Shown here: one piece after another, positions 19,687 to 43,502 of the stretch | Layout: the number at the start of each line of letters is the position of its first letter | Numbering within the stretch: position 1 is the first letter of the stretch | Assembly (NCBI GenBank): GCA_021604505.1 | Contig: BQJC01000001.1 | Coordinates: 1,018,218-1,082,217 of the forward strand | DNA: 64,000 nucleotides | From: Nitrospinaceae bacterium | GTDB taxonomy: Bacteria; Nitrospinota; Nitrospinia; Nitrospinales; VA-1 | Direction: 5' to 3' | Position numbers and translations under genes: made by a program | Notes under the pieces: model-generated | The model's database searches: none | What the model was told of the DNA's origin: nothing | What the model saw: the letters and a program-made list of their open reading frames with translations, nothing else

Positions 19687-19799
19687 TAAAGTCTGTTAAG
19701 GATAAAAACATTCAGTGTAAATATAAAATATCTTGCATTCCGAATAAATTCTGTTAACCTTAAAAAGTTAATAAAATCAATACAGTGCGAGGTAGAACC

Positions 19800-27289: not shown

Positions 27290-27342
27290 TTGTCTTTTAA
27301 GATGTATTTTATAATCAGGAGGATGCGGATTGTTTCCCAATA

Positions 27343-28146
27343 CTACCTGGAAAGCCCGCAAAACTCCTCATAGTCTATTAATTCCGTGATCGTCGGATTT
27401 TCACTGCAAACCGGGCAGTTGGCATCCCGTTTCAATTTCAATTTGCGAAACTCGGTGTTGAGAGCGTCGTAAATCAAAAGCTTGCCTATCAGCGTGTCGC
27501 CTTTTCCCAGAATGAGTTTCAGGGTTTCGACGGCCTGCAAATTGCCGATCACCCCGGCTAAAACGCCCAAAACCCCGCCTTCCTGACAATTCGGGACCAA
27601 CCCCGGTGGCGGTGGTTCGGGATACAGACAGCGGTAACAAGGACCGTCACCGGGTTTGAAAACCGTTGCCTGGCCCTCGAAGCGGAAAATACTTCCGTGG
27701 ATATTGGTTTTTCCGGCCATCACGCAGGCATCGTTGATGAGATACCGGGTGGCGAAGTTATCCGTTCCGTCGAGGATGTAGTCGAAACTGTCGAAGATTT
27801 TGAGGATATTTTCCGAGGTCAGCTTTTCGTTGTAAACCGTAACCTTGACATCGGGATTCAGCGCTTCGATGGTTTTCCTGGCCGATTCGGTTTTCAGCAT
27901 CCCGATCCGCTCGGTGGAGTGGATGATCTGCCGTTGCAGATTGCTCAAATCGACCGTGTCGAAATCCACGATACCGAGGTTGCCGATGCCTGCCGCCGCC
28001 AGATAATAGGCCGCAGGCGAACCCAGACCGCCGGCGCCGATCAGCAGGACTTTGGCCTCCAGCATTTTAGTCTGACCCACGCCCCCCACTTCCGGGAGCA
28101 TGATGTGGCGGCTGTAACGTTCAACCTGTTCGTCGGTGAAATCCAT
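27343..28146 (-). CDS. MoeB/ThiF-type sulfur-carrier adenylyltransferase
   Basis: A 267-residue E1-like enzyme that adenylates the C-terminal glycine of a ubiquitin-like sulfur carrier. It has the ATP-binding GAGGLGS (37-43), LSNLQRQ with the conserved Arg, DGTDNFATRYLINDAC, and two zinc-binding CxxC pairs (CYRC near 173 and CPVC near 250). There is no C-terminal rhodanese domain. The carrier gene lies immediately upstream with 2 bases between them. It probably activates that carrier for cysteine synthesis; service to molybdopterin or thiamine synthesis cannot be excluded. Confidence 0.9.
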   Translation of the reverse strand: MDFTDEQVERYSRHIMLPEVGGVGQTKMLEAKVLLIGAGGLGSPAAYYLAAAGIGNLGIVDFDTVDLSNLQRQIIHSTERIGMLKTESARKTIEALNPDVKVTVYNEKLTSENILKIFDSFDYILDGTDNFATRYLINDACVMAGKTNIHGSIFRFEGQATVFKPGDGPCYRCLYPEPPPPGLVPNCQEGGVLGVLAGVIGNLQAVETLKLILGKGDTLIGKLLIYDALNTEFRKLKLKRDANCPVCSENPTITELIDYEEFCGLSR

Positions 28147-28148
28147 GA

Positions 28149-28430
28149 TTACCGCGATCCACCTGCAATGGCCGGAATGATGGAAATTTCATCGCCTTCC
28201 TTGACCGCGGTCTTTTCACCGTCGAGAAACCGAATATCTTCTTCGTTGACATATATATTGATGAACCGCCTGGGGGAACCGTTTTCTTCACAGATACGCT
28301 CTTTGATTCCAGAAAACTGCGTTTCCAGGTTGTCGAAAATATCCGAAATAGTATTCCCCTCAGCGGTAACCTCGCTCTTATTGCTGGTCAACTTCATGAG
28401 AGGGGTGGGGATTCTGACTTTTACCGCCAT
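28149..28430 (-). CDS. ThiS/MoaD-like sulfur-carrier protein ending GG-SR
   Basis: A 93-residue beta-grasp carrier. It starts VKVRIPTPLMKLT and has the family segments FINIYVNEEDIRFL and GDEISIIPAIAGG. Typical carriers end exactly at GG so the terminal glycine can be thiocarboxylated. Here two further residues, Ser-Arg, follow, so activation would need proteolytic trimming, as described for some CysO/HcyS-type carriers handled by JAB metalloproteases. No such protease is encoded within this window's operon. A strong AAGGAG precedes the start. It is flanked by threonine synthase and the E1-like gene. Confidence 0.88.
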   Translation of the reverse strand: MAVKVRIPTPLMKLTSNKSEVTAEGNTISDIFDNLETQFSGIKERICEENGSPRRFINIYVNEEDIRFLDGEKTAVKEGDEISIIPAIAGGSR

Positions 28431-28446
28431 GATTCACTCCTTAGTA

Positions 28447-29685
28447 TTAAACCGTTAAACTGTTGGCAAAAATTTCTTCAAAACTGCTGAGATGCGGTTC
28501 GATGACCGCCGGAGCCGCGAAAGCTCCGTCCAGGGCTTCCTGGGTTTTGAGACCGTTCCCGGTGATGCAGATGACCGTCACCTCATCGGGTTTGATGCGT
28601 CCCTGTTTGATCAATTTCTGAGCCACTCCCAGAGTCACGCCGCCTGCCGTTTCTGTGAATATGCCTTCCGTTTCCGCCAAAAGCTGCATGGCTTTTACGA
28701 CTTCTTCGTCTGAGACATCTTCTCCATAGCCGCCGCTTTCATTGGCGACTTTTATCCCGTAATAACCGTCTGCCGGGTTGCCGATGGCGATGGATTTTGC
28801 GATCGTGTTGGGTTTGACGGGGGTGATCATGTCCGCGCCATTTTTGATGGCCGTCGTCACCGGAGAGCAACCCGTTGCCTGGGCTGCGAAAACCTTGGTC
28901 TTGAACGGTCCGATCAGGTCCAGATCTTCGAATTCATGAAAAGCTTTCCAGATTTTGGTGATGAGCGAGCTTCCAGCGACTGGAACCACCACGTTGTCCG
29001 GTGCCTTCCATCCCAGTTGTTCGGCGATTTCATAGCCATAGGATTTCGACCCGTCTCCGTAATAGGGGCGGATATTGATGTTCACGAACGCCCATTTATG
29101 ATCGGTGGCGATTTCACTGCACAGGCGGTTGACGTCGTCATAACTGCCCTTGACCGCAATCAATTGCGTTCCATAGATCAAGGTGCCGAGAATCTTGCCG
29201 GCTTCCAGTCCATCTGGAATGAAGATACAGCTTTTGAGTCCGGCCTCCGCCGCGTGCGCCGCTACGGAATTCGCGAGATTCCCTGTGGATGCGCAGGACA
29301 AGGTGTCGAAACCGAATTCAACCGCCTTGGAGACGGCAACAGCCACCACCCGGTCTTTAAATGAAAACGTGGGGTGGTTGACAGAATCGTTTTTGATATA
29401 GAGATGATTCAGCCCAAGAGCTTTGCCGAGGTTCTTTGCGCGCACCAAGGGGGTGAACCCGGTATGCAGACCCACTTTCGGGTCCTCGTCGATAGGCAGA
29501 AGTTCCTGGTACCGCCACATGGAAGGAGGTCTCGACTCAATGGATTTACGACTGACCACCTTTTTGATGTTTTCATAGTCATAATCGACTTCCAGGGGGC
29601 CAAAACAAAATTCACAAACATGAATCGGTTCTTTTGGAAATTCTTTTTTACATTCTTTACAGCGCAGGCCTTTTACGTATCCCAT
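28447..29685 (-). CDS. thrC: Threonine synthase
   Basis: A 412-residue PLP enzyme converting O-phosphohomoserine to threonine. The N-terminal zinc ribbon (C9, C12, C24, C27) and the PLP lysine K110 in FSFKDR are clear, followed by CASTGNLANSVAAHAAEAG. A late FTETAGGVTLG segment and VICITGNGLK complete the family pattern. AAGGA precedes the ATG. It lies between cysK and the sulfur-carrier gene, within a sulfur amino-acid operon. A role with O-phosphohomoserine in homocysteine formation is a speculative alternative; threonine synthesis is the default. Confidence 0.9.
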   Translation of the reverse strand: MGYVKGLRCKECKKEFPKEPIHVCEFCFGPLEVDYDYENIKKVVSRKSIESRPPSMWRYQELLPIDEDPKVGLHTGFTPLVRAKNLGKALGLNHLYIKNDSVNHPTFSFKDRVVAVAVSKAVEFGFDTLSCASTGNLANSVAAHAAEAGLKSCIFIPDGLEAGKILGTLIYGTQLIAVKGSYDDVNRLCSEIATDHKWAFVNINIRPYYGDGSKSYGYEIAEQLGWKAPDNVVVPVAGSSLITKIWKAFHEFEDLDLIGPFKTKVFAAQATGCSPVTTAIKNGADMITPVKPNTIAKSIAIGNPADGYYGIKVANESGGYGEDVSDEEVVKAMQLLAETEGIFTETAGGVTLGVAQKLIKQGRIKPDEVTVICITGNGLKTQEALDGAFAAPAVIEPHLSSFEEIFANSLTV

Positions 29686-29694
29686 AGGTCCTTC

Positions 29695-30651
29695 TTAATC
29701 AAAGTATTTATAAAAACTGAGGTATCGTTCTCCGGTGTCGCAAATGATCACGACGATATTTTTACCCGGCCCCATTTCTTTAGCCAGTTGACAAGCGGCG
29801 AAGCAGTTGGCTCCAGACGAAATGCCAACCAGCAGACCTTCTTCCTTGGCCAGTCGCAAGGCAAAGCTGTAAGCATCGTCATCGGAAACCGCACGGATGC
29901 TGTCCAAAATATCCATGTTCAATACTTTGGGCTTGAATCCTGCCCCGATCCCCTGAATTTTATGCGGTCCCGGAGGGTTTCCGGAGAGAACCGCAGACGT
30001 CGCCGGTTCCACCCCAACGATTTTTGCGTCGCCATAATGTTGCTTTAAGACTTCTCCTGCACCCGTGATCGTGCCCCCGGTGCCAATTCCCGCGACGAAC
30101 CCGTGCACCGGTTCGCCGTTCATGGAAGCGATGATTTCCGGCCCTGTGGTTTGACGATGCACTTCCGGATTGGCCGGGTTGTTGAACTGTTGCGGCATGA
30201 AGTAATCCGGGTTTTGGGCCTGTAATTCCTCGGCCCGTTCGATGGTTCCTTCCATGCCGAACTCAGCGCGGCTCAATTCTAATTTGGCGCCAAAACTTTC
30301 AAGGATCGTCCTGCGTTCCTCGCTCATGTTTTCCGACATGACCAGGATGACCTTGTAACCCTTCACCGCCCCAACCAGTGCCAGACCGATGCCGGTGTTT
30401 CCGCTGGTGGGTTCAATGATAGTGGACCCAGGTTTTAAAACCCCTCGTTTTTCTGCGTCCTCAATCATAGCCAGAGCGATCCGGTCTTTCACGCTTCCAC
30501 CCGGATTCATGAACTCCAGCTTGGCAAATATATTGGCGCCATTGGGGGGAGAAACCCTGTTCAGTCTAACCAATGGCGTGCCGCCGATCAACTCTAAACT
30601 ATTATCAAATCGGGTTTTAGATTTTTCGATCGGTTGTGAATTAGCCGTCAT
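29695..30651 (-). CDS. cysK: Cysteine synthase A (O-acetylserine sulfhydrylase)
   Basis: A 318-residue PLP enzyme forming cysteine from O-acetylserine and sulfide. Features are IGGTPLVRLNR, the PLP lysine K55 in GGSVKDR, TSGNTG, VAGIGTGGTITG and the IQGIGAGF segment typical of CysK. It is a standard length. It is the first gene of the minus-strand operon that continues with thrC (9 bases later), the carrier, its activator and the CysM-like enzyme, so the cell encodes a sulfide-dependent and a probable carrier-dependent route side by side. Confidence 0.93.
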   Translation of the reverse strand: MTANSQPIEKSKTRFDNSLELIGGTPLVRLNRVSPPNGANIFAKLEFMNPGGSVKDRIALAMIEDAEKRGVLKPGSTIIEPTSGNTGIGLALVGAVKGYKVILVMSENMSEERRTILESFGAKLELSRAEFGMEGTIERAEELQAQNPDYFMPQQFNNPANPEVHRQTTGPEIIASMNGEPVHGFVAGIGTGGTITGAGEVLKQHYGDAKIVGVEPATSAVLSGNPPGPHKIQGIGAGFKPKVLNMDILDSIRAVSDDDAYSFALRLAKEEGLLVGISSGANCFAACQLAKEMGPGKNIVVIICDTGERYLSFYKYFD

Positions 30652-30915: not shown

Positions 30916-32304
30916 TCAAAAACTCACTCCGAGGGTCAGAGAGGCGATATTTTCCTTATAATCCGAGGACGCCAGATTGGAGGTGCTGTCGATAAATTGA
31001 TAATCCAGTTTGCCGAAGACATTTTTATAAATCGTCTGGGCCACTCCAAATTCAATCGTGTGCCGGAAGTCATCTCGTTTCTCACCAATACTGACAGTGA
31101 CATTTTTATAGTCCCTGAAGATATACTTGTGCCCCAGAATGATCTTGGTTTTTTTTCCAAGGGGTAGTTTCACCTGGGAGTTAACATAGTGTCCTAAGTA
31201 ATCAAACTCTTCTCCGGTGGTGATTTCGTTTTCAAATCGGTAGCTCAATTGAATGATCCCCTTGCCATCCATGATGAAAAAGAAATTGCCGAAACTAAAA
31301 CCATGGTTTTGAGCATCGCGCAGGGGGCTGTCAAAAAAATGGGTGTCCTTGTAAGCATAGGTTAGCGTCGCGTACCATTTTTCACTGACCGCATATCCAA
31401 CACTGGGGCTTGCAGATAAGATTTCCAGAAAGTCCTTTTCTCCAAGGGTCGTCCGATTATAGAAATTGAACAGTCCCAGGTTGAATTTCCCCAATTCATG
31501 AGAACCACTGAGGGAAAAAATGTGAGACTGGATATCAAACGCCGCAAGGTCGTCGTGGAGGCTTTGATAAAAATCATACCCGGCTTCAAGTTCCAGTTTG
31601 GGGGTTTTCAGGAATTTGTAAGCTCCGGAAAATTCAAAAATGTAGGAAAAATCATCCAGATTGGTGGTCAGGTCCTGTTCGTCGACGGTGATGTTATCGT
31701 CATATTCAAACCCGGCTCCAAAGGAAAGATGCCAGGGCTTTTGCGGTTTTTTATCCGCCTGTAATTTTAAAAGGGCTTTTGCTCCTTCCGCAAGTTCACT
31801 GCCGGGATCGGCTTTAATGGCCTTGTTCCAATGCTCAGCAGATTGCTCAAAGTTCCCCAACTGCGAATGTGCCTTGCCGATATTGAACAAAGCCAGTTGA
31901 TGAAAATCAGGGTCCAGCTTTCCAGCCTTTTCAAAATAGGGGATGGACTTTTCATATTGTTCCTGGCCCTGTAAGGACAGGCCGAGAAAGACCAGAGCAG
32001 AGCTGTTCTCTGGGTTCCGCTCTAAAATCTGCTGAAAGGTTTCAGCCGCTTCCTCAAAGGATTGAAGCTTGAAATAAGCGATTCCCAGATTGAGGCGGAC
32101 TCCTTCCAACGTCGGATCAAGTTCCAGAGCGCGCTTGAAGGAAGGGATGGCTTTTTCGTGTTCCCCCTCCTTGCTGAAGGCGACACCCTGTGCCAGAAAT
32201 CCGTCTGCGGTTTCCTGAGAAAAGCCTGAATAGGGCCAAAACAGGCAGAAAATAAAACTCAAAAAGCTAGTTCGAAAAACCCGGCGGAAGGGAAGGGATT
32301 TCAT
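30916..32304 (-). CDS. TPR protein with C-terminal outer-membrane barrel domain
   Basis: A 462-residue exported protein. Signal peptide about 1-28 (ending SGFSQ). Residues 33-175 contain about four tetratricopeptide repeats (for example AIPSFKRALELDPTLEGVRLNLGIAYFKL). From about residue 190 the sequence changes to alternating aromatic/polar strands typical of an outer-membrane beta-barrel and ends in LGVSF with a terminal Phe. The layout resembles TPR plus barrel proteins related to surface lipoprotein assembly modifiers. A partner or cargo is unknown. It lies upstream of, and is possibly linked to, the sulfur operon only by orientation. Confidence 0.8.
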   Translation of the reverse strand: MKSLPFRRVFRTSFLSFIFCLFWPYSGFSQETADGFLAQGVAFSKEGEHEKAIPSFKRALELDPTLEGVRLNLGIAYFKLQSFEEAAETFQQILERNPENSSALVFLGLSLQGQEQYEKSIPYFEKAGKLDPDFHQLALFNIGKAHSQLGNFEQSAEHWNKAIKADPGSELAEGAKALLKLQADKKPQKPWHLSFGAGFEYDDNITVDEQDLTTNLDDFSYIFEFSGAYKFLKTPKLELEAGYDFYQSLHDDLAAFDIQSHIFSLSGSHELGKFNLGLFNFYNRTTLGEKDFLEILSASPSVGYAVSEKWYATLTYAYKDTHFFDSPLRDAQNHGFSFGNFFFIMDGKGIIQLSYRFENEITTGEEFDYLGHYVNSQVKLPLGKKTKIILGHKYIFRDYKNVTVSIGEKRDDFRHTIEFGVAQTIYKNVFGKLDYQFIDSTSNLASSDYKENIASLTLGVSF

Positions 32305-32536
32305 TAAATTATATTTTGAGTTGGTTATATTTGCCCGAGTGAATTATACAGAATAAGCGGTGTTCGTCAAACCGAACTCTTGTTTATTCAGGAAAATAAG
32401 AAATCAGGAGCTATTTTGTGGGTATCAACCTAAAGATATGTTAGTTAAGAAATTACCGGTTGTTGAAGTATCTCAATTTTGGGGAAAATAGTGAAAAGAG
32501 GGTTCGTTCCTCCAAAATAATTCATTGTGGGGGGAT

Positions 32537-32566
32537 AAAAAAATGGGTGAGCTGGCGCTCACCCAT
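32537..32566 (-). terminator. Intrinsic terminator after the first FecR-repeat gene
   Basis: A perfect 10-bp stem (ATGGGTGAGC / GCTCACCCAT) with a 4-base loop at 32543-32566 is followed on the minus strand by a run of six or seven T. It lies 29 bases beyond the stop codon at 32595, so this is a strong rho-independent terminator. Confidence 0.85.
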
Positions 32567-32594
32567 TGGCTGGTGGCTTTCGATGCATGGAATT

Positions 32595-34127
32595 TTAAAT
32601 AATCCCACCCCCGGCATTTCCTATTTCTTTAGCGACTTGTTTGGCCGTGTTTTTGGCCGAATTCTTGGCTGTGTTTTTGGCGGAGTTCTTGGCCGCTGCC
32701 ACGGCGGAGTTCTTGGCTGCCGCTACGGCGGAGTTCTTGGCCGCTGCTACGGCGGAGTTCTTGGCTGCTGCCACGGCAGAGTTCTTGGCCGCAGACTTGG
32801 CGGATGCCTTGGCCGCTATTTTAGCCGAACCTTTGGCTGCTAACTTCGCAGAATCCTTGGCCGCTCCTTTCGCGGAGTCCTTGGCCGTTAATTTTGCAGA
32901 GCTTTTGACCATAAATTTATCGGCCTTGGCCGTGAATTTATCAACCATCTCGGCAGCTTTTTTAGCAAACCTAGCCGCTTTTTCGGGATCCTTATCCGCA
33001 AATCTATTGGCCTTGGCCATAAATTTATCGGCCATTGTAGTGGCTTTTTCAGTAAATTTAGCCGCATTTTCTTGAGCCTTAGCTGTTTTCATGGAGGTCA
33101 TGGCGGCTTTTTTCGCTAAACCTTTTTCGACCCCCTGAAACGATGCCATTTTAATAGGTTTGGTGGTTTTATTCACAACTTTAGCTAAAAAGCGGGCAGG
33201 GGCATTTTTTACCGGCGAGGAAGAGCCATCCGGGAAAAAGTCCTGCATTTCTCCCGCCGAAATAAAAAACGTACTGCCTTTGCCGTTGGTTTTATTCGAG
33301 AAGGTCTCAATTTTTCCTTCCAGAACCACAAAAGTGGATTTTCCCTCACGATTTGTAATGACCGCGAATTCGGTTCCCCGTACTCCCGCCGTTGCGGTCG
33401 GGGTGACCACTTTAAAAGAGGAACCATTGGTCATGTCTTTGGTGACTTTAAAACGAACCCAACCGATAGAAGCCTTGATCAAGGTTTCCCGAAGATTTTT
33501 ATCCGGGTTATAGACATGTTTATTAATATTGATAACCGTGTCCTCACTCATGGTGAGGGTGCTTGCATCGTCAAAGGTAAAAAGCGCCTTGGAAGAATAG
33601 TCCGTTTCGAATTGGTCGTCCATAAAAACCGGACCGGCCAACTCAATTTGCTTCTTTTTCGATTGGCCCTTATGGGTTTGATAAACTGTTCCATCCATTC
33701 CGGTGGTGATGCCGATATCCGTCGATGAAATGATCTTTGCATTTTTCAAAAACAGTTTTTGCTCGAACAATGACTTGTTTGGTTCACCGCCTGAGAAGGC
33801 ATACGTGATTCTTATAAATTCCTGTTGCGTCAGCAATCCATCGGGCGATTTATTTTCTAAAACATTCACGCCACGACTTTTCAACCGGTTTGTGACCTGC
33901 GGAAACATCGCCTTGCCGGACATTTGCGAATGATTGGTTGGCAACAGTACATTTTCAGGATGATTTTTAGCCAGTAATTTGATGAAATCCCCGCGGGTAA
34001 TTTCCCCTTGGCTGGACACAGATGAAAAAGCAACTCCTGAAGCCATGAGAACCGATAAAAAGACAATCGTAATAGAGGTTTTGCGAAATAGCTGGGCAGA
34101 TGAAAAATTGCTAAAGGAATTTTTCAT
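32595..34127 (-). CDS. FecR-domain protein with Lys-Ala octapeptide repeats (copy 1)
   Basis: A 510-residue exported protein. Signal peptide about 1-35; residues 40-120 form a helical region with ITRGDFIKLLAKNHPEN; residues 180-290 are a FecR-type domain (ALFTFDDASTLTMSEDTVININK, GWVRFKVT, VVTPTATAGVRGTEFAV, TFVVLEGKIE). After residue 330 the chain is low-complexity, rich in Ala and Lys, ending with eleven 8-residue units of the form KNSAVAAA/KDSAKxAA and the tail AGGGII. FecR domains here lack a transmembrane anti-sigma segment, so a classical FecR role is unlikely. GGAG precedes the start. It is paralogous to the gene at 34234. Confidence 0.85.
   Translation of the reverse strand: MKNSFSNFSSAQLFRKTSITIVFLSVLMASGVAFSSVSSQGEITRGDFIKLLAKNHPENVLLPTNHSQMSGKAMFPQVTNRLKSRGVNVLENKSPDGLLTQQEFIRITYAFSGGEPNKSLFEQKLFLKNAKIISSTDIGITTGMDGTVYQTHKGQSKKKQIELAGPVFMDDQFETDYSSKALFTFDDASTLTMSEDTVININKHVYNPDKNLRETLIKASIGWVRFKVTKDMTNGSSFKVVTPTATAGVRGTEFAVITNREGKSTFVVLEGKIETFSNKTNGKGSTFFISAGEMQDFFPDGSSSPVKNAPARFLAKVVNKTTKPIKMASFQGVEKGLAKKAAMTSMKTAKAQENAAKFTEKATTMADKFMAKANRFADKDPEKAARFAKKAAEMVDKFTAKADKFMVKSSAKLTAKDSAKGAAKDSAKLAAKGSAKIAAKASAKSAAKNSAVAAAKNSAVAAAKNSAVAAAKNSAVAAAKNSAKNTAKNSAKNTAKQVAKEIGNAGGGII
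32643..32906 (-). repeat. 24-bp tandem repeat encoding KxSAxxAA units
   Basis: Eleven in-frame 24-bp units at the 3' end of the FecR-type gene, encoding 8-residue repeats with Lys at position 1, Ser at 3 and Ala at 4 and 8. The four central KNSAVAAA units are the most alike. Units to the left are more diverged, suggesting recent expansion in the middle. Confidence 0.85.
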
Positions 34128-34187
34128 TTTTCTTCTCCAGTAAAATTTTTAATATAAAAATCATTGGTAAATAAAATAAAATTCTCT

Positions 34188-34221
34188 AAGACCCCGCTGC
34201 GTCTGAAGTGAGCCGGGTCTT
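34188..34221 (-). terminator. Probable terminator after the second FecR-repeat gene
   Basis: Arms AAGACCC (34188-34194) and GGGTCTT (34215-34221) enclose a GC-containing interior and, read on the minus strand, are followed by an AT-rich tail beginning AGAGAATTTTATTTT. It lies in the 106-base gap behind the stop at 34234. Confidence 0.55.
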
Positions 34222-34233
34222 TCAGGCGTTTTT

Positions 34234-35892
34234 CTATAACAAAGTTTCCTTGATGATTTGTTTTACTGTTTCGGTAGCAGCATCCTTGGCCGCCGCTACG
34301 GCAGAGTCTTTGGCCGCTTCTACGGCAGAGTCCTTGGCCGCCGCTACGGCAGAGTCCTTGGCCGCCGCTACGGCAGAGTCCTTGGCCGCCGCTACGGCGG
34401 AGTCCTTGGCCGCTGACACGGCGGAGTCTTTGGCCGCCGCTACGGCGGAGTCTTTGGCCGCCGCTACGGCGGAGTCCTTGGCCGCTGACACGGCAGAGTC
34501 TTTGGCCGCCGCTACGGCGGAATCTTTGGCCGCCGACACGGCGGAATCTTTGGCCGCCGCTACGGCGGAATCTTTGGCCACGGAAACAGCGGTGTCTTTG
34601 ACGACGGGCATGGCGGAGCCTTTAACAGATGCAACGGGAGACTCCTTAAGGCCACTCAAGGTGGAATCAAGATTGGATACAACGGGAGATTCCAGAACAT
34701 TGCTCAAAGTGGAATCAAGGGTGGATACAACGGGAGATTCCAGAACATTGCTCAAAGTGGAATCAAGGGTGGACACTGCGGGAGAATCCTTGACTCCTGT
34801 TACAGTGGAATCTATCACGGTACCTTGAGCAAAGCCGAGGCTCGCAGTTTTTGCTGAAATTTTTGCCGCGGACTTGGCTAATTCTTTGGCGATCCCTTTG
34901 GGCAAAGTTAATTTTTTTGGTTTGGTGGTTTTATTGATGACCGTATTTAACAAACCGGGCGAGGCTTTTGCTACCGCAGTCACCGCACCGTTTTGAGAAA
35001 TATCTTGAAATTCACCTGCTGAAATAAATGCAGCTTTCCCTTTCTCACCATTGGGTAAAATGGGCCAGGTTTCAATCTGGCCTTCCAGAACCACAAAGGT
35101 AGTTTTTCCTTTTGGGTTTACAAAAACCGCAAATTCCGTTCCCCTTACTCCGGCTATGGCGGTGGGTGTGACCACTTTGAAGAAAGAACCGTTTTTTAAC
35201 TTTTTGGTCACCTTGAACCGCACCCAACCCAGTGAAGCCTTGACCAGTGTTTCCCGAATATCCTGGTCCGGATTGTAGATGTGTTTGTTGATATTGATAA
35301 CAGTGTCTTCACTCATGGTGAGAGTGCTTTGATCGTCAAAAGTAAAAAGAGCTTTTGAAGTGTCGTCCGTTTCGAATTTGTCCTCCATGAAAATCGGAGC
35401 GGCCAATTCGGTTTGCTTTTTATCAGTTTCACCCTTATGGGTTTGGAAAACTTTCCCGTCAACCCCGGTAGTGAGGCCGATGTCTGTGGATGAAATGATC
35501 TCCGCATTTTTCAAAAACAGTTTTTGTTCAAACAGGGATGAGTTTTTAGGCCCGCCGGCAAAGGCATAGGTGATGCGTACAAACTCCTGTTGAGACAGGG
35601 CCTCAAGTGAAGGTTTATTATCCAGAACATTGATTCCTTGTTTTTTCAGAGAACTGGCGACTTGCATATACAATGCCTGTTTGGACAATTGAGAATGGTT
35701 TTTCGGCAAAAGAGAGTTTTCGGGATGATTTTTTGCCAGCATCTCAATAAATTCTCCACGGGTGATAGCACCTTCGCCGGGAACCGATGCAAACCCAACC
35801 CCATGAGCAAAAAGAACCGATAAAAAGACAATCAAAAAAGCGATTTTTCGAAATAACCGGATATTCGAAAAATTGTTAAATGAAAATTTCAT
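34234..35892 (-). CDS. FecR-domain protein with Lys-Ala octapeptide repeats (copy 2)
   Basis: A 552-residue paralogue of the protein at 32595-34127, with the same order of parts. A signal peptide is followed by an ITRGEFIEMLAKNHPEN helical region, then the FecR-type domain (ALFTFDDQSTLTMSEDTVININK, GVRGTEFAVFVNPKGKTTFVVLEG). Next are three 16-residue units of the form STLDSTLSNVLESPVV, then fourteen 8-residue units of the KDSAVAAA type, ending KQIIKETLL. The repeat array could form an Ala-rich helix with periodic charge. The start at 35892 is supported by GGAG; the ATG at 35904 is not. Copy 1 follows after a probable terminator. Function unknown; likely acts in the periplasm with the nearby CHASE2 cyclase. 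Confidence 0.85.
   Translation of the reverse strand: MKFSFNNFSNIRLFRKIAFLIVFLSVLFAHGVGFASVPGEGAITRGEFIEMLAKNHPENSLLPKNHSQLSKQALYMQVASSLKKQGINVLDNKPSLEALSQQEFVRITYAFAGGPKNSSLFEQKLFLKNAEIISSTDIGLTTGVDGKVFQTHKGETDKKQTELAAPIFMEDKFETDDTSKALFTFDDQSTLTMSEDTVININKHIYNPDQDIRETLVKASLGWVRFKVTKKLKNGSFFKVVTPTAIAGVRGTEFAVFVNPKGKTTFVVLEGQIETWPILPNGEKGKAAFISAGEFQDISQNGAVTAVAKASPGLLNTVINKTTKPKKLTLPKGIAKELAKSAAKISAKTASLGFAQGTVIDSTVTGVKDSPAVSTLDSTLSNVLESPVVSTLDSTLSNVLESPVVSNLDSTLSGLKESPVASVKGSAMPVVKDTAVSVAKDSAVAAAKDSAVSAAKDSAVAAAKDSAVSAAKDSAVAAAKDSAVAAAKDSAVSAAKDSAVAAAKDSAVAAAKDSAVAAAKDSAVEAAKDSAVAAAKDAATETVKQIIKETLL
34264..34599 (-). repeat. 24-bp tandem repeat encoding KDSAVAAA
   Basis: Fourteen 24-bp units, in frame, encoding KDSAVAAA with limited variation (KDSAVSAA, KDSAVEAA, terminal KDAATETV and KDTAVSVA). 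Near-identity at the DNA level suggests recent slippage or unequal crossover, so copy number may vary between strains and assemblies may collapse it. Confidence 0.9.
34632..34775 (-). repeat. 48-bp tandem repeat encoding STLDSTLSNVLESPVV
   Basis: Three 48-bp units (starting near 34632, 34680 and 34728), the last two almost identical, with a partial fourth after 34775. They encode 16-residue units with Leu at spaced positions, in the linker between the FecR-type domain and the octapeptide array. Confidence 0.8.
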
Positions 35893-35968
35893 TTCCCGCT
35901 CCATTGTTCTGTTTAAATAAAAATAGTTAAAACGCAGTTGCGTGAGAAGTAAGTTGGGTTAGCAGGAA

Positions 35969-36026
35969 ATCGGGCCTGGACCCTGTTTCCTGAGCTTTCT
36001 CATAGCCAAACAGGTGCAAGCCCGAT
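35969..36026 (-). promoter_or_regulatory. Candidate structured leader RNA upstream of FecR copy 2
   Basis: Within the 370-base non-coding region 35893-36262, three helices are nested: a 7-bp outer stem (35969-35975 with 36020-36026), a 7-bp middle stem (35982-35988 with 36008-36014) and a short 3-bp apical stem closing an AAAG loop. The structure ends 77 bases before the start codon at 35892 on the transcribed strand. I compared it by eye with c-di-GMP-I, cobalamin, TPP and SAM consensus motifs and saw no match. The remaining part of the gap (36027-36262) shows nothing recognisable. Confidence 0.4.
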
Positions 36027-36262
36027 GCCTAAAAGGACCAAAAAATAGCGAAGTTCCGAAAGGGTTTGGAAAAGGGGAGGTTGGGTCGAATACTTTTTTT
36101 TAAGCGGGGAAGGAGAACCGCTTTTTTGGAAAATTGGGTGATCAATTTTTTAAACAACTGGCGAGAGAATAAGTACCTGATTTAGAGTAGTTTACAACCG
36201 ATGTGCATCTCCTGGTTTAACCCGTTTTAAACAGACAGGTTCAGCGTGGACCAGGACAAAAG

Positions 36263-38380
36263 TCAGGAAGAAGAAATCAGTTGCGTCGCTTCATCGGCTG
36301 GCAAAGGCTTGCTCAACAGATATCCCTGAATGATATTGCACCCGATGGACCGCAAAACTTCTTTCTGGACTTCAGTTTCCACACCCTCAGCAATGGTTTT
36401 GAGGTTCAGTGCGTTCGCTAAACTTACAATAGCCTTGGCCAGGGTTGCGTCTTTTTCAGAGGTGATGTCCTTCACAAAAGCCCGGTCGACCTTAAGATTA
36501 TTCAATGGAAAACTGTTCAAATAATTAAGGGAAGAATAACCGGTTCCGAAATCGTCGATCGATATTTTTATTCCCAAACTGTTTAACTGCCTGAGTTGGT
36601 CGGCGGCATTCTCTGTGTTTTCCATCAAAACCGATTCCGTGATTTCCAACTCCAGGTATTCGGGGTGAATTTCTATGTCTTTAAGGGTCTCAATTATGGT
36701 TTCAACAAGTTCGGATTGGTTGAACTGATGGGCGGAAAGATTGACCGCGATGGTGATAAATGGCAATCCCATGTCCTGCCAGGTTTTAATCTGTTGGCAG
36801 GCAGTTCGCAGAACCCACTCACCTAAAGGATTGATGAGCCTGGTTTTTTCCGCCAGGGGGATGAATTCCATCGGGGAAACCACCCCCCGGCGCGGATGAT
36901 TCCAACGCACCAGAGCTTCAAATCCGATGATGGTTTCAGAGTCCAGATCCAGTTTGGGCTGATAATAGAGTTCAAATTGCTCCCTCTCCACGGCATTTCT
37001 GAGATCCTGCTCCAGGGTCAGCTTATTTTTAGCCTGGTCTTCCATGTCGGAGATGTAATGACGATAGGTATTTTTGCCGTTTTCCTTTGCAGAATGCATG
37101 GCCGTTTCTGCATGTTTAATCAGAATTTCGCCTTCATGTCCGTCTAAAGGATGATAGGAGAGACCAATGCTGATTGTGACAAAGACTTCTTGTTCACAAA
37201 GTGGAAAGGGGCCGTAGATCAGTCTGAGCAATTCGGAAGCGGCCTTCGCCGCCTCGGTCTCAAAATTGATCCCGGAAAGGATTACAATAAACTCATCTCC
37301 GCCATACCGTCCGACACGACAGTCTGGTGGCGCCCAATTGAGGAGTCGTTCCGTGACGGTTTTCAGTATTTTGTCACCAGCTTGGAGTCCCATGGAATCG
37401 TTGATAACTTTAAAATCATCCAGATCCAGCAACAATACAGCGATGGATTTATTTTTCCGGTTTTCGGTCGCCAGCTCTGAGTTCAGGTGCTCAAGAATCA
37501 GTTTTTTATTCGGAAGCCCCGTCAACGAATCATAAAAAGTCAGATTGGAATTCTTATCTTCCAACTCCTGGACCTGAGACATGTCTTGCGCTATGCCTAC
37601 GAAGACCGGTGGAGTTTCGGTCGTTTGCAATTTAAAATGAATTTCGACAGGGTAAGTCGATCCGTCCTTCCTTTGGTGTTCCCCTTTGTAAACGACCTCC
37701 TGTTTTTTCCCTGCGCGCAAGGGTTTTGTCAGTTCGACAAAAAATTCTTTTGTCGTGTAGGCGATCACGTCAAATGGAGACATTTGCGCGATTTCGCCTT
37801 TTTCATATCCCAGATTCCTCAGGGCGCGTGAATTCATCTTTATGAAGTGATAGGTCTCGGAATCAAAGATATAAATTTCATTTAAGGTGTCATTGAGAAG
37901 GTCCTTGAGCCCGGCATTGGTTTTCTTTTCGCTTCGAAGGATTCTCATACCCTGATCCAGGGCGACCAGATCTTCCCGGGCCCGTTCAGAAACGGTCTTT
38001 AAGACAGTCATTAGAACTTGCGGGTTAGAAGCGAAATGAATCTGGAATTGATCTTTGCCTATTTCCAGCACTCTGGATTTCGAAATAGCGATCAGGGTCG
38101 CTGAACGGGGTTTGCCTTCGATCAAGGTCATCTCTCCAAAGTGATCTCCCTGGCTTCGATGCGCGATCATGGTGTTTTCTTTTTCCACTGAAAGCGCTCC
38201 GGAGAGGACGACAAACATGGAATCACCCAAATCCCCCTCCCGGAACAATATTTCTCCGCCTTCTAGGCTGATTTCCTTGCAGTCGTTTACCAGACATTGC
38301 AATTTTTCATGGCTCAAACTGCTGAAAATTCCAATGGACTTCAGGGAATTGACAATGTCGTCCTGAGAAGAGAGTTTCAT
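36263..38380 (-). CDS. cNMP-binding PAS-GGDEF-EAL signalling protein
   Basis: A 705-residue cytoplasmic protein with four modules. Residues 15-130 are a cyclic-nucleotide-binding domain (EILFREGDLGDSMFVVLSG; phosphate cassette HFGEMTLIEGKPRSATLIA). Residues 150-275 are a PAS domain ending in a PAC-like segment. Residues 280-440 are a diguanylate cyclase with intact RYGGDEF. Residues 455-700 are a phosphodiesterase with intact EALVRW and downstream DDFGTGYSS and AEGVET motifs. Both catalytic signatures look complete, so it may make or degrade c-di-GMP, gated by a cyclic nucleotide. It is divergent from the CHASE2 adenylate cyclase at 38657 (276-base intergenic region), which suggests cAMP as its ligand. 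Confidence 0.93.
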   Translation of the reverse strand: MKLSSQDDIVNSLKSIGIFSSLSHEKLQCLVNDCKEISLEGGEILFREGDLGDSMFVVLSGALSVEKENTMIAHRSQGDHFGEMTLIEGKPRSATLIAISKSRVLEIGKDQFQIHFASNPQVLMTVLKTVSERAREDLVALDQGMRILRSEKKTNAGLKDLLNDTLNEIYIFDSETYHFIKMNSRALRNLGYEKGEIAQMSPFDVIAYTTKEFFVELTKPLRAGKKQEVVYKGEHQRKDGSTYPVEIHFKLQTTETPPVFVGIAQDMSQVQELEDKNSNLTFYDSLTGLPNKKLILEHLNSELATENRKNKSIAVLLLDLDDFKVINDSMGLQAGDKILKTVTERLLNWAPPDCRVGRYGGDEFIVILSGINFETEAAKAASELLRLIYGPFPLCEQEVFVTISIGLSYHPLDGHEGEILIKHAETAMHSAKENGKNTYRHYISDMEDQAKNKLTLEQDLRNAVEREQFELYYQPKLDLDSETIIGFEALVRWNHPRRGVVSPMEFIPLAEKTRLINPLGEWVLRTACQQIKTWQDMGLPFITIAVNLSAHQFNQSELVETIIETLKDIEIHPEYLELEITESVLMENTENAADQLRQLNSLGIKISIDDFGTGYSSLNYLNSFPLNNLKVDRAFVKDITSEKDATLAKAIVSLANALNLKTIAEGVETEVQKEVLRSIGCNIIQGYLLSKPLPADEATQLISSS

Positions 38381-38656
38381 AAATTTCTCAAAAATTATTG
38401 TGGTTGACCTGTGGTCTGCTTTTTGGGCTCAATGACTATCTGTACAGGGAATATTTTTAAGGTAATTGGTTTTACATTTATTTTCAAGTAAAATAATATA
38501 TACTAAGTAATTGATTTTTAATAACCTTAGAGTTTTTTCAGGTATTGCAAAATTGGGGTCCTAAATGACATCTGGTGCAAGAAAATCGTCGCAAATAACA
38601 GGGGTAAAATCAGTGATTTTTAAAAACCTGGGCAGATTTCTCCTATTTTTGACACC

Positions 38657-40930
38657 ATGAAAAAAGCGATTCCCTGGATCATCGGCTTAGCAGTCACAAG
38701 CATCCTTTGCCTTGGTTATTGGCTGAATCCCTCCTCGATGCACCGAATGGAGCTTCTCTTTCAAAACGCTCATTTTCAGTGGCGGGGGCCTTTGCAACCG
38801 GGGCCCGAAGTGGTTATCGCCGCAATCGATGAAAAAAGTATCGATGAATTTGGGCGTTGGCCCTGGTCCAGAAAAACGATTGCGCAGCTGGTCGATAAGC
38901 TGGTTGAGAGCCAGGCGAAGGTGATCGGGTTTGACATGGTGTTCTCGTCGCCCGATGACAGCTCCGGGAAGAACAGCCTCCATCGAATAAAAGAAAAATT
39001 AAAAGAAGAGATCAAAGACGGCCCCCTGGTCGAGGGGCTGATGCATCCCATAATGCAAGAGGCAGATAACGATGCCATCCTCGCCTCGGCTCTCAAAAAA
39101 TCAAAACGAGCCATTTTAGGTTTTTTTTTCCATTTCCATGCTGAAGAGGTGCGGCACCTCACAGCAGCGGAAAGGCACGATCATTTTCAAACTATCAAGC
39201 GTGCTCAATTTGGTGGGTTCACAAAGCCCAAACACGACTTTGATTTGTCGCTGGTGGATTTCAGGTCAGGCTATGCGGTGGAGTCGAACATTCCCATGCT
39301 ATCCGAAAGCGCCAGAAGTCAGGGCTACATCTCGTTTGATATCGAGCCGGATGGTTCCATGCGCAGGCTCCCCATCATCGTCAAGTACCTCGATAAAGCT
39401 TCCAACCGCGAGTATTTTTTCCCCCCCATGAGCGTCAGGGTTCTTGAAAGGTATTTAAAGGGAGCGCTTTTGTTCCGTGTGGGGGAGTTTGGGGCGGAAA
39501 AAGTACTTTTTAATGGAACGGAATCCATAGAAGTGCCCATCAATGAAAAAGGCGAAATGCTGGTAAATTTTCTCGGAGCCAGGGGAACGTTCCCACATAT
39601 TTCCATTGTCGACATTCTGCGTGACGGTGACAACCGGGTTTCTGGCGAGAGTTTGAAGGGTAAAATCGTCTTGATCGGAACCACTGCAACGGCCATGGGG
39701 GACAATAAAGTCACGCCGTTTGACCCGGCCTATCCGGGCGTCGAGATCCACGCGACCATCATCGACAACATCTTAAGGAAAAATTTCCTTTATCAACCGG
39801 GGTGGATTTTTCAGGCCGATTTGGTTTATCTGTTGGCCTCAGGGTTTTTCTTGACCTGGATGTATTTGCGTATCAAGCCGGTTAGGGGCGCATTGGTTTG
39901 TGGTCTGGTAGCCGGTGCCCAGTTTTTATTGACTCAATGGGTCTTTGTGAACCATGGATTTTGGATCACCGCGGTATTCCCGTTTCTTGAAAATATTCTT
40001 ATTTTCGGATCGTTGACGATTCATTGGTATTTGACGGAGAAAAAACAAAAGCACTTCATTCACGATGTCTTTGGCAAGTACCTCTCTCCCAAAGTGGTCG
40101 ACAGACTCATCGAAGACCCCGGTCAGTTGCAATTGGGCGGCGAGGAAAAAGAACTCACCGCGTTGTTCACCGATTTGGCGGAGTTCACGACCTTATCCGA
40201 AAAGCTGTCCGCGCAGGAACTGGTCAATCTTCTAAACGACTATTTCACGGAGATGACAGAAATTCTTTTGAAGCATGAAGGGACTTTGGATAAATACGAT
40301 GGTGACGCAATCAAGGCGTTTTTTGGTGCGCCCTATTATTTTGAAGACCACGCGAAGCGGGCCTGTTGGGTGGCGATTGAAATGCAGGAACGGCTGAAGG
40401 CCCTGCGTGAGCAGTGGAAAAAGGAGGGAAGACCAGAACTGGAAATGCGCATTGGGTTGAACACCGGAATGATGGTGGTGGGAAATTTAGGGTCGAAAAA
40501 TAGAATGAATTATGGCATGAACGGCGACTCCGTCAACCTTGCCGCCCGGCTGGAAGGCGCGAATAAGGAATATGGAACATTTACTTTGATCAGCGAATCA
40601 ACTTATGAACAAGCAAAAGATTGCATCGAAGTTCGGGAGCTGGATTCTATCCGGGTGGTCGGGCGCACCACACCGGTCCGGATTTTTGAACTTCTGGGTA
40701 AAAAGGGTTCACTGGATGAAACCACCCGTGAAATATTGGGTTGGTATCAGAAGGGACTCGGGTTTTATAGAGAAGGGGACTGGGAGGAAGCAATAACCCA
40801 GTTTAAAAATGTTCTTGAAAAACGTCCCCAGGACGGTCCCTCTTTTACCCTGTTGAACCGGTGTCAATTATTAGGGAAAAGTTTCCCGCAGAAAAAATGG
40901 GACGGAATTTATTCCATGCCCGCCAAGTAA
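38657..40930 (+). CDS. CHASE2-domain class III adenylate/guanylate cyclase
   Basis: A 757-residue membrane cyclase. TM1 (about 3-23) leads into a large extracytoplasmic CHASE2 domain (about 40-370; VVIAAIDEKSIDEFGRWPWSR is the hallmark start). Three more membrane helices (about 385-455) follow, then a class III cyclase domain (about 480-665) with both metal aspartates in FTDLAEFTTLSE and KYDGDAIKAFFGAP and a NYGMNGDSVNLAARLEGANK segment. The last 90 residues contain a TPR-like unit. It probably makes cAMP in response to an extracytoplasmic signal. CHASE2 cyclases are often found next to FecR-domain genes, as here on the other side of the divergent cNMP-GGDEF-EAL gene. Confidence 0.93.
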   Translation: MKKAIPWIIGLAVTSILCLGYWLNPSSMHRMELLFQNAHFQWRGPLQPGPEVVIAAIDEKSIDEFGRWPWSRKTIAQLVDKLVESQAKVIGFDMVFSSPDDSSGKNSLHRIKEKLKEEIKDGPLVEGLMHPIMQEADNDAILASALKKSKRAILGFFFHFHAEEVRHLTAAERHDHFQTIKRAQFGGFTKPKHDFDLSLVDFRSGYAVESNIPMLSESARSQGYISFDIEPDGSMRRLPIIVKYLDKASNREYFFPPMSVRVLERYLKGALLFRVGEFGAEKVLFNGTESIEVPINEKGEMLVNFLGARGTFPHISIVDILRDGDNRVSGESLKGKIVLIGTTATAMGDNKVTPFDPAYPGVEIHATIIDNILRKNFLYQPGWIFQADLVYLLASGFFLTWMYLRIKPVRGALVCGLVAGAQFLLTQWVFVNHGFWITAVFPFLENILIFGSLTIHWYLTEKKQKHFIHDVFGKYLSPKVVDRLIEDPGQLQLGGEEKELTALFTDLAEFTTLSEKLSAQELVNLLNDYFTEMTEILLKHEGTLDKYDGDAIKAFFGAPYYFEDHAKRACWVAIEMQERLKALREQWKKEGRPELEMRIGLNTGMMVVGNLGSKNRMNYGMNGDSVNLAARLEGANKEYGTFTLISESTYEQAKDCIEVRELDSIRVVGRTTPVRIFELLGKKGSLDETTREILGWYQKGLGFYREGDWEEAITQFKNVLEKRPQDGPSFTLLNRCQLLGKSFPQKKWDGIYSMPAK

Positions 40931-40964
40931 ATGAGTGAGGAGAACAGGCGCTCCCTTAGCCGGA

Positions 40965-43502
40965 TCAACCCTGGCTGAGATCTTTTTTGAAACTTCCCAA
41001 ACGTCTTTGAAACTGTTTGGTCACGAAATCGGAATCTTCCGAATTGGAGATGATGTGAGGCGTTATAAACAACATCAATTCCGTTTTCTTGGTGGTGTCG
41101 ATGTCCGTACTGAACAGCTTTCCCAGATAAGGGATTTTCCTAAGGATCGGAATTCCTTCATTCGAGTCGACGGTGTCCGTCCGCATTAATCCACCCATAA
41201 TCAAGACTTGATTGTCTTTGAGGACGACCTCTGTGTTCAACAGCCGTGTGCTGAAAGAAGGTGAATTCCCGATCGTGGGCCCCAGACTGCTGATTTCCTG
41301 GCTCAGCTTCAGGTTCACGAAATTGTCGGAATTGATTTTAGGGATGATGTCCAGTTTGATGCCGACGCTTCGGTATTCAATGGTCGATTGGGTTACCGGG
41401 TTGGCCGCCCCCGCCGACGTGAGGGTCGTGCTTTGAATGGGAATTTCATCGGCGATGGAGATATTTGCGGTTTTATTGTCCGTCGTTACCAGTATCGGGT
41501 TGGCCAGGACATTGGCTTTGGAGTCGGACGCGAAGGCTTGCAACAATGTGATCAGTCGATTGGGATCGCTGACCAGAAAACTGCCTCCCGGCTGAAGAAT
41601 CGACGAGGTGGCGCCTCCGATTTGCGCTCCCAGGGTGCCGCCTCCGGGTGCCGGCGTTTGATTCACTCCACCCACAAAGGTGGTGCTTCCCTTATTCCCT
41701 TGCAGGGCCCACTCAAGGCCGGCGCGGGTCTCCGCATCCAGCGTCACATCGATGATCAAAACTTCGATGAGCACCTGTTGCGGAAACAGGTCCAGTTTTT
41801 TGATCAGTGCCAGAAGAGCCGGATAATTTCTCGGACTGGTACGAATGACCAGGGAGTTGGTGTCCGGATCGGGAATGATTATTATTTCGCCTTGAAAACT
41901 GTCTTCAATGCCTCCTTGAGTTTCGATGGAAACATTCTTCTTGGCGCCTGGCGCACCTTTTTTGTCTTTTTGATATTCTTTGACCTTTTTGAGTTTGGTT
42001 TGATCGTCGGTTGAGGGTCTTTTGGCCTTTCGGTCTTTTTCCGGGTCGTCTCCCTGTCCCTGGAAAATATCGTTTAAAAGAGCCGATAACGGCAACGCAT
42101 CACCGTTTTGAACGTAATAAACGAATGTGCTGGATTTTCCCTCGGAGATGGGTTGGTCCAGTTTATTAATCCAGAATTCGATGGAAGGAAGGGTTTTTTC
42201 AAATGCGTTGACCACCAGAATGGAATTCATCCGTTCCAATGAGAGAAAGTTCAATGAATTTCCCAGGGATTCGCTATAGCCCATGGATGAGAAGATTTCC
42301 ACAAGTTCCGCGACGACGGTTTCGGAGTCGGCGTTATTGAGCTTAAAGAGTTGAATGTCTGAAGACGCCAGCTTGTCAATGTCCAACGCGGCCACTACGC
42401 TCAGGATGCGTTTGACGTTAACCGCCATTTCGACCAGCATCATATTGTTTGTTTCGGGCATTTCGATGAATGTCGCGTTTTCAGAAAGCAGCGGCGTGAG
42501 GATTTTTTTCATCGACGCCATCGAAATGTATTTTAGAGGAATGATCTGAATGATCATCCGCTCGTGAGGGGGGATCAAACGATCGTTTCCGTAATAGATG
42601 TTCAACGGTTTTTTTCCCGCTTCCTTAGTGGGAAGAAAGCGGTAAAAGTTTCCACTCTTCAATACGGAAATGTTGTGTAAAGCGAGAATTTGTTCCAGCA
42701 CATGATACAAGTCCCGTACAGGAATCTCGTTGAAGGTTTGCAGGGTGACTTTGCCTTTTAAATTTCCCTCGATCAGGTAATCGATTTGCAGTAGTTCGCA
42801 AAAAGTGGTGATGACATCGTAAATTTCGGTGCCTTCAAAGTTCAGCGTGATGTGCTTGGCCTGGCGCAGACTTTTAGGAAGGCGGGGAGTTGGGTCAAAG
42901 GAGGTACGAAACCTTTCCTGGGATGTATTTTTTCTTGTCTGAATGACTTCCTTCGTAAAATCGGCAGGTATTGTATCCGTATGATCGGATGCTTTTTCTT
43001 CGATAATGGAAGAAAGCAGTGAGGACACGAAAAATTTTTCGTCCTGCTCATTTTGAATCAGGTACCAGGGTTCCTTTTTGCCTGGAGAGTTGTTGATCCT
43101 TAAAAGTCGGTAGGTTTGTCCCTTGGATGCGATCCCCACTTTTTTAAACTGCGGGCCGGGTCCCTGGCGCAGGGGAACATTATTGCCCGACACGCTGATC
43201 CATTTGGTGACGGGGTCTTTGGGAATTTTGCGGAGTTGATTTTTGTCAATGAGCTCGGGTTCGGATGTGCCAAAGGCCGGCGCATTTCTTTTGCGAATGT
43301 CCGACCCGGCCCTTATTTCAATGGAAGGGGTGTCCTTTTTGTTCCGCGGTCGAAAGTCCTTCGCTTTCTTTTCCGGCAAACGCATGGAATCGATGGGGTT
43401 TTCATTTCGATCCGCCTGGTTCAGGGCAGGTTTTCCCTGATGACTGCATGCAAAGACGAACCCTAGAAGAAAAATGAAAGATATTTTGAAAAGTCGGGTC
43501 AT
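40965..43502 (-). CDS. gspD: Type II secretion secretin GspD with SH3-like domain
   Basis: An 845-residue outer-membrane secretin, the exit pore of the T2SS. A lipobox-type signal ends at C19 (FVFAC). Residues 100-165 match a bacterial SH3 domain (VPLRQGPGPQFKKVGIASKGQTYRLL, WYLIQNEQDEKFFVSSLL), which is unusual in GspD. The periplasmic N0-N3 domains follow, then the secretin core with VLIEVLIIDVTL, SNANILANP-like KANVLANPILVT and the closing VPILRKIPYLGKLF-type segment (IPILRKIPYLGKLF). A charged insert (KRPSTDDQTKLKKVKEYQKD) lies before the N3 region. It is last in the gsp operon and overlaps gspM by 4 bases. Confidence 0.95.
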   Translation of the reverse strand: MTRLFKISFIFLLGFVFACSHQGKPALNQADRNENPIDSMRLPEKKAKDFRPRNKKDTPSIEIRAGSDIRKRNAPAFGTSEPELIDKNQLRKIPKDPVTKWISVSGNNVPLRQGPGPQFKKVGIASKGQTYRLLRINNSPGKKEPWYLIQNEQDEKFFVSSLLSSIIEEKASDHTDTIPADFTKEVIQTRKNTSQERFRTSFDPTPRLPKSLRQAKHITLNFEGTEIYDVITTFCELLQIDYLIEGNLKGKVTLQTFNEIPVRDLYHVLEQILALHNISVLKSGNFYRFLPTKEAGKKPLNIYYGNDRLIPPHERMIIQIIPLKYISMASMKKILTPLLSENATFIEMPETNNMMLVEMAVNVKRILSVVAALDIDKLASSDIQLFKLNNADSETVVAELVEIFSSMGYSESLGNSLNFLSLERMNSILVVNAFEKTLPSIEFWINKLDQPISEGKSSTFVYYVQNGDALPLSALLNDIFQGQGDDPEKDRKAKRPSTDDQTKLKKVKEYQKDKKGAPGAKKNVSIETQGGIEDSFQGEIIIIPDPDTNSLVIRTSPRNYPALLALIKKLDLFPQQVLIEVLIIDVTLDAETRAGLEWALQGNKGSTTFVGGVNQTPAPGGGTLGAQIGGATSSILQPGGSFLVSDPNRLITLLQAFASDSKANVLANPILVTTDNKTANISIADEIPIQSTTLTSAGAANPVTQSTIEYRSVGIKLDIIPKINSDNFVNLKLSQEISSLGPTIGNSPSFSTRLLNTEVVLKDNQVLIMGGLMRTDTVDSNEGIPILRKIPYLGKLFSTDIDTTKKTELMLFITPHIISNSEDSDFVTKQFQRRLGSFKKDLSQG

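Follow-up and report, generated by a model that had tools for sequence, protein, structure and literature searches.

We analyzed a window of 64,000 nt (the whole stretch of DNA considered here) from a Nitrospinota genome, using its open reading frames (ORFs) and Pfam domains at gathering cut-offs, and focused on a gene group that brings together secreted FecR-domain proteins, a CHASE2 cyclase, and a predicted cyclic di-GMP (c-di-GMP) enzyme. Two FecR genes (32595..34127, 510 aa, and 34234..35904, 556 aa) and a gene whose product carries cNMP, PAS_9, GGDEF, and EAL domains (36263..38380, 705 aa) lie on the minus strand. A gene for a CHASE2 class III nucleotidyl cyclase with CHASE2 and Guanylate_cyc domains (38657..40930, 757 aa) lies on the plus strand, divergent from the cNMP-PAS-GGDEF-EAL gene across a gap of exactly 276 bp (38381-38656). 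This layout had been described in a first-pass annotation of the same DNA and is borne out by the ORFs and by Pfam, with all four named domain types above the gathering cut-offs. To the left of the FecR genes lies a further member of the conserved module, encoding a 462 aa protein with tetratricopeptide repeats (TPRs) and a 14-strand outer-membrane beta-barrel (30916..32304, minus strand).

This TPR-barrel protein was recognized from Pfam TPRs, a SlipAM match of 23.6 bits (cut-off 22), and an AlphaFold model with a mean predicted local distance difference test (pLDDT) of 88.9, in which 10 helices are followed by 14 strands; it ends in a C-terminal Phe. Wherever a copy of the module is complete enough, its gene adjoins FecR. 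Consensus scans revealed a terminator-like hairpin of 11 pairs with a T-run 3' of the first FecR gene (32542..32567, minus strand) and, found by the scan only, a promoter-like site 5' of the barrel gene (TTGACG-16-TATAAT, 11/12, 32343..32370, minus strand). Because these two elements stand between the genes, the barrel gene probably has a transcript of its own, distinct from that of the first FecR gene.

The two FecR proteins (Pfam FecR E=1.8e-14 and E=1.4e-13) have a common layout: a Sec-type signal peptide, an N-terminal helical domain, the FecR domain, and an Ala/Lys-rich tail. The repeats reported in the first-pass annotation are real, the tails containing octapeptides of the form (N/D)SAVAAAK that are encoded by a 24-bp tandem repeat, with 4 copies of NSAVAAAK in the first protein and 12 of DSAVxAAK in the second. 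Residues 1-345 of the second protein were modeled by AlphaFold with a mean pLDDT of 87.9, and a Foldseek search with this model matched the PupR signaling domain (6ovk, E=5.9e-8) as well as the anti-sigma factor 4m0h. Pfam and Foldseek thus both point to the FecR-fold periplasmic domain of the FecR/PupR anti-sigma regulators. The single-pass inner-membrane and cytoplasmic anti-sigma layout of these regulators is not seen in the window proteins, where a signal peptide is followed by a periplasmic domain, and there is no sigma-factor gene among the annotated genes of the module. We rejected a classical FecR anti-sigma role, as the membrane and anti-sigma layout does not match. Within the FecR domain encoded at 34234-35904, the first half also resembles the cell-surface anchoring domain of MpAFP (5ix9; profile E=1.1e-4; Foldseek root-mean-square deviation of 1.1 over 64 columns).

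The protein encoded at 36263..38380 is predicted to be a cyclic-nucleotide-controlled c-di-GMP phosphodiesterase/cyclase. The first-pass annotation had allowed for a loss of the residues needed to bind a cyclic nucleotide; the phosphate-binding cassette is intact in the window (G82, E83, R92), and the GE...R cassette is kept in 24/24 module homologues. The EAL catalytic residues are likewise present (E488, N547, E579, D609, D610, K630, E665, and Q685) and are kept in nearly all single-copy modules. The GGDEF motif at 360-364 is intact in the window, without an RxxD I-site. Since several relatives (L077, L078, L080, L081, L082) have a degenerate GGDEF domain and keep their EAL sites, predicted hydrolysis is better conserved than synthesis as an output of single-copy modules. 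Of the c-di-GMP turnover put forward in the first-pass annotation, the hydrolytic half is thus better supported than synthesis. Four lineages hold two copies (L084, L085, L086, L126): in one copy a GGDEF domain with RxxD goes with a ruined EAL site, the other keeping its EAL site intact, as if a duplication had been followed by a split of synthesis and hydrolysis.

The cyclase is a clear family member (CHASE2 E=1.6e-59, 202.0 bits; Guanylate_cyc E=1.2e-23, 84.1 bits). Its metal-binding (D506, D550) and transition-state (N627, R631) residues are present and invariant in the alignment. At the purine-contact positions, K546 is present and the usual Thr is replaced by G620 throughout the clade, so that the Lys plus Thr/Ser pair of a canonical class IIIb adenylate cyclase is not found in the window protein. 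Among solved cyclases, the closest is 6fht, the E488K variant of the CHASE2 guanylate cyclase Cya2, which combines a Lys plus Gly pair with specificity for ATP (PMC5995499). Because Lys546 is present and the ATP-specific Cya2 E488K has the same pair, the product is most likely cyclic AMP (cAMP).

A survey of CHASE2 neighborhoods, as suggested in the first-pass annotation, covered 60 relatives and placed 57 full-length CHASE2 cyclases; FecR counts were taken from Pfam positions, ORF calls being mis-stranded at some FecR genes. A FecR domain lies within 8 kb of 44/57 of these cyclases, against about 1.0 expected, and a cNMP-GGDEF-EAL gene lies near 14/57, against 0.55 expected (expectations from counts and genome sizes, with shared ancestry ignored). 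The co-location is far beyond chance and is conserved. The description of the arrangement as uncommon does not stand for its FecR-CHASE2 part, FecR beside CHASE2 being common in this order and already published. The full cassette was found in the same order and orientation in eight copies (L073, L074, L075, L076, L077, L080, L081, L082); L083-L087 are variants with a second phosphodiesterase copy, a rearrangement, or an extra gene, and partial copies occur at contig ends. The four module proteins give trees that share their main groups (distance correlations r=0.85-0.95), and in each of them the copy in a genome of another family (G044) falls with the window type. This congruence fits inheritance or transfer of the genes as a block. 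FecR linkage does not hold everywhere: of the deltaproteobacterial relatives of the cyclase, most have housekeeping genes around them and no FecR neighbor, and a universal FecR-CHASE2 rule was rejected for this reason.

The effector next to the cyclase varies. The window genome encodes only two class III cyclases, one in the module described here (module A), whose effector is the cNMP-PAS-GGDEF-EAL protein, and one in a second module (module B, L042-L047), where the cyclase is flanked by FecR on one side and on the other by a CRP-type regulator assigned with Pfam. A third CHASE2 protein of this genome carries a sigma-54 activator domain. Elsewhere, a cNMP-LuxR regulator lies beside the barrel gene (L084-L087), and four loci (L080, L081, L083, L090) have cNMP proteins that resemble hybrid histidine kinases when their sequences are read by eye. 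A cNMP-domain gene lies within 6 kb of 25/25 cyclases of the window's clade vs 5/77 others. The 25 cyclases belong to a single clade and so count as one evolutionary association, not as 25; for the same reason, the Thr-to-Gly change that they carry was rejected as independent evidence of repeated co-evolution with cNMP genes.

Fusions are also found. In L056 and L057, FecR, TPR, and a TonB-receptor-like barrel are joined in one protein of 1135-1143 aa, encoded divergently from a CHASE2 cyclase. FecR-flanked CHASE2 cyclases in L060, L095, and L105-L108 lie beside two-partner secretion genes (TpsB/ShlB), together with a TPS-domain TpsA-like protein where scanned, which suggests a wider tie of FecR-CHASE2 systems with outer-membrane secretion. 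Encoded alongside a TPR protein and a CHASE2 cyclase, a FecR protein on a Paracoccus plasmid (L113, 5841-7808) shows weak, sub-threshold C-terminal matches to TbpB_B_D and FHBP_C. This type of barrel is typical of type 11 secretion cargo.

The reading that best accounts for the synteny, the congruent trees, the intact sites, the fusions, and the published precedents is a relay from an outer-membrane sensor through FecR and the CHASE2 cyclase to cAMP and c-di-GMP hydrolysis, and we consider it probable. The outer-membrane TPR-barrel protein and the secreted FecR proteins would together sense something at the cell surface; their cooperation is suggested by their conserved adjacency and by the FecR-TPR-barrel fusions seen elsewhere, and the barrel protein is likely the true input of the module. 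The FecR domain would then act on the CHASE2 domain in the periplasm and change its state, most likely by lifting an inhibition, as in the model cited for NsrA (see below). The cyclase, whose catalytic residues are in place, would make a cyclic mononucleotide, most likely cAMP; this may bind the PAS-GGDEF-EAL protein at its cNMP domain, whose pocket residues are kept. Binding would switch the EAL phosphodiesterase and, if the sign is that of Bd1971, lower c-di-GMP. The chain from FecR through CHASE2 and cAMP to c-di-GMP turnover was already proposed in the first-pass annotation and is the best-supported one, except that the TPR-barrel input was missed and that cAMP is to be worded with the caution that Gly620 imposes.

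Several points weigh against this relay. Simple co-inheritance would also give congruent trees, which do not by themselves prove interaction; gene adjacency does not prove contact, and the structure models are of single chains. The standard purine Thr is missing from the cyclase (Gly620), and the purine Lys is replaced by Arg in four relatives (L084-L087), making specificity there less sure. In one lineage (L030/L087-type) the only copy adjoining the cyclase is EAL-degenerate, as in L087, where an EAL-ruined copy stands alone beside it. The window genome encodes several other cNMP proteins that are possible targets, and the identity of the Sinorhizobium meliloti counterpart discussed below is drawn from position, size, and topology. 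A further cNMP-binding protein of about 200 aa, encoded in the window itself at 19785-20396, is a possible additional target of the cyclases.

A different role for the barrel has to be weighed, namely that it is a Slam/type 11-like exporter with the FecR proteins as its cargo, so that the relay would monitor the export or presentation of surface proteins and not an external ligand. SlipAM is above its cut-off in the window as well as in L077 and L076, with higher scores in two orthologues (28.2 and 25.8), and the 14 predicted strands are the number given for DUF560 proteins, as opposed to 16 in PgaA (PMC8406197). The two-partner secretion genes at other CHASE2-FecR loci, the likeness of the N-terminal half of the FecR domain to the MpAFP anchoring domain, and the C-terminal TbpB_B_D match of the Paracoccus protein all point the same way. 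However, the SlipAM scores are marginal, and no match is listed for L080, L086, or L187. Pfam matched only FecR in the window FecR proteins, with no TbpB_B_D C-terminal barrel, and the Paracoccus match is itself below cut-off. The best solved-structure matches of the TPR-barrel protein are BcsC and porins, with low TM-scores, and the closest of these, BcsC, is an exopolysaccharide exporter. We regard this exporter-and-cargo reading as rather unlikely; for the barrel itself, type 11 secretion is a possible assignment.

A more mechanical version, which we find improbable, would have the barrel export or thread the FecR repeat tail, with the FecR domain acting as a periplasmic plug that holds the cyclase off. 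If true, the cyclase would be freed when the tail is pulled, loaded, or lost, with a rise in cAMP and c-di-GMP hydrolysis as the outcome. The module would then be a mechanical or export sensor working via two second messengers, with swappable cNMP effectors (a c-di-GMP enzyme, CRP, LuxR, or a histidine kinase).

The relay could also run on cyclic GMP (cGMP), or on a nucleotide of mixed specificity, and mainly switch the GGDEF half, as in the Xanthomonas pair XC_0250/XC_0249. The Gly at the second purine position is common to the window cyclase and the guanylate cyclase Cya2, the adjacent Xanthomonas pair uses cGMP (PMC3770947), and the window GGDEF motif is intact. Yet Lys546 stands where Cya2 has Glu, the Lys plus Gly variant of Cya2 is ATP-specific (PMC5995499), and L077, L078, and L080-L082 keep EAL with a degenerate GGDEF; we consider this version unlikely. 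That the genes are mere neighbors, the FecR proteins being structural or surface proteins with a role of their own and the cNMP-GGDEF-EAL protein answering a global cAMP pool, would agree with the nearest, sub-threshold NCBIfam matches of FecR (Leptospira surface proteins), the several other cNMP proteins of the genome, and the terminator and promoter that part the barrel gene from the FecR operon, but is distinctly unlikely given the conservation across families, the congruent trees, the swapping of effectors with a cNMP gene retained each time, and the fusions.

In the divergent intergenic region between the cNMP-PAS-GGDEF-EAL and cyclase genes, we detected no CRP-type site (TGTGA-N6-TCACA). 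This region contains an AT-rich inverted repeat, TTTTAC...GTAAAA, with the palindrome TTTTACATTTATTTTCAAGTAAAAT (38470..38494), which falls inside an aligned, well-conserved block of 6 orthologous intergenic regions. On the other side of the cyclase, a terminator-like hairpin found by consensus scan (40955..40979, plus strand) lies between the cyclase gene and a convergent gspD. The type II secretion genes (gspD at 40965) were rejected as part of the module, since most other module copies have no adjoining gspD; one other gspD was seen, in L091, next to a different pair of phosphodiesterases. At its N-terminus, the window GspD (40965-43502) carries an additional region that matches SH3_3 weakly, below the cut-off (19.7 bits). 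Elsewhere in the window, at 26267-30651, a row of genes read by eye from their sequences encodes a cysteine synthase, a ThiF/MoeB-like protein, a 93-aa MoaD/ThiS-like carrier ending in GGSR, a threonine synthase, and a second cysteine synthase; the row is reminiscent of carrier-protein-dependent sulfur amino acid synthesis.

It has long been asked what CHASE2 domains sense, and few direct links are known from cyclic mononucleotides to c-di-GMP. The module would join two messenger systems usually studied apart, c-di-GMP being the biofilm messenger. As a candidate outer-membrane input, a periplasmic go-between, a cyclase, and a c-di-GMP enzyme are united in one inherited cassette, the whole path can be tested with a handful of genes, and the FecR-CHASE2 core with its swapped effectors offers a natural series on CHASE2 control. 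The cassette suggests a way in which Nitrospinota, marine nitrite oxidizers not easily manipulated, may tie c-di-GMP to the state of the surface.

FecR-CHASE2 clusters and cyclase/cNMP-GGDEF pairs are both already published, and neither half is new; the union of both halves with a barrel gene in one conserved cassette was not found described among the open-access papers that we searched. On the output side, the Xanthomonas pair XC_0250/XC_0249 similarly sets a class III cyclase next to a cNMP-GGDEF protein and passes from a cyclic mononucleotide to c-di-GMP; it differs in having a guanylate cyclase with a TPR region and GGDEF synthesis as its output, with no FecR or barrel described (PMC3770947). 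In Bdellovibrio Bd1971, to which the window protein has a sequence match (6hq5), a cNMP domain controls a cAMP-activated EAL phosphodiesterase; it lacks PAS and GGDEF domains, and the accessible part of that report mentions neither a CHASE2 cyclase nor FecR next to it (PMC6717892). The features expected of a Bd1971-like enzyme, the phosphate-binding Glu and Arg and the EAL catalytic residues, both appear in the window sequence.

On the input side, PupB-PupR and FecA-FecR cell-surface signaling also uses a FecR-fold periplasmic domain to receive an outer-membrane signal, as the 6ovk match recalls, but those proteins are membrane-bound and control a sigma factor, whereas the window FecR proteins are secreted, lack a membrane anchor beyond the signal peptide, and sit with a cyclase. 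The Burkholderia BiofilmReg operon, which affects biofilm, has a FecR-domain periplasmic protein adjoining a CHASE2 receptor; there CHASE2 belongs to a histidine kinase paired with a response regulator, and the FecR domain is fused to LysM (PMC5192318). A Campylobacterota cluster combines a CHASE2 adenylate cyclase, a FecR-domain outer-membrane protein, and a TPR protein in one proposed pathway, and its fourth gene encodes a cAMP phosphodiesterase, no cNMP-GGDEF-EAL gene being described (PMC9239204).

A further comparison is with the S. meliloti NsrA-CyaK/CyaD1/CyaD2-Clr system, in which an outer-membrane barrel receptor feeds CHASE2 adenylate cyclases. NsrA, with its barrel at residues 600-1200, is required with CyaK for the cyclase-dependent signal response (PMC7529298, PMC13001267). 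The NsrA work is said to propose that an extracytoplasmic function (ECF)-type (FecR) module inhibits the transmembrane cAMP enzyme (PMC9239204). On pSymB (L112), the gene for a 1190-aa FecR-TPR protein (WQO39452) overlaps cyaK; from its position, size, and topology, this protein is almost certainly NsrA. The S. meliloti output is a transcription factor, Clr, a CRP-type regulator that reads cAMP, as at the second locus of the window genome; the window output is a c-di-GMP enzyme, and the cyclases are distant. The cyaK-overlapping gene holds FecR, TPR, and a C-terminal region, the parts of the window FecR plus TPR-barrel proteins, and such FecR, TPR, and outer-membrane barrel parts are all encoded next to the window CHASE2 cyclase. 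They are fused in S. meliloti and split in the window, where by analogy the barrel and FecR proteins may form a split receptor holding CHASE2 back or setting it off.

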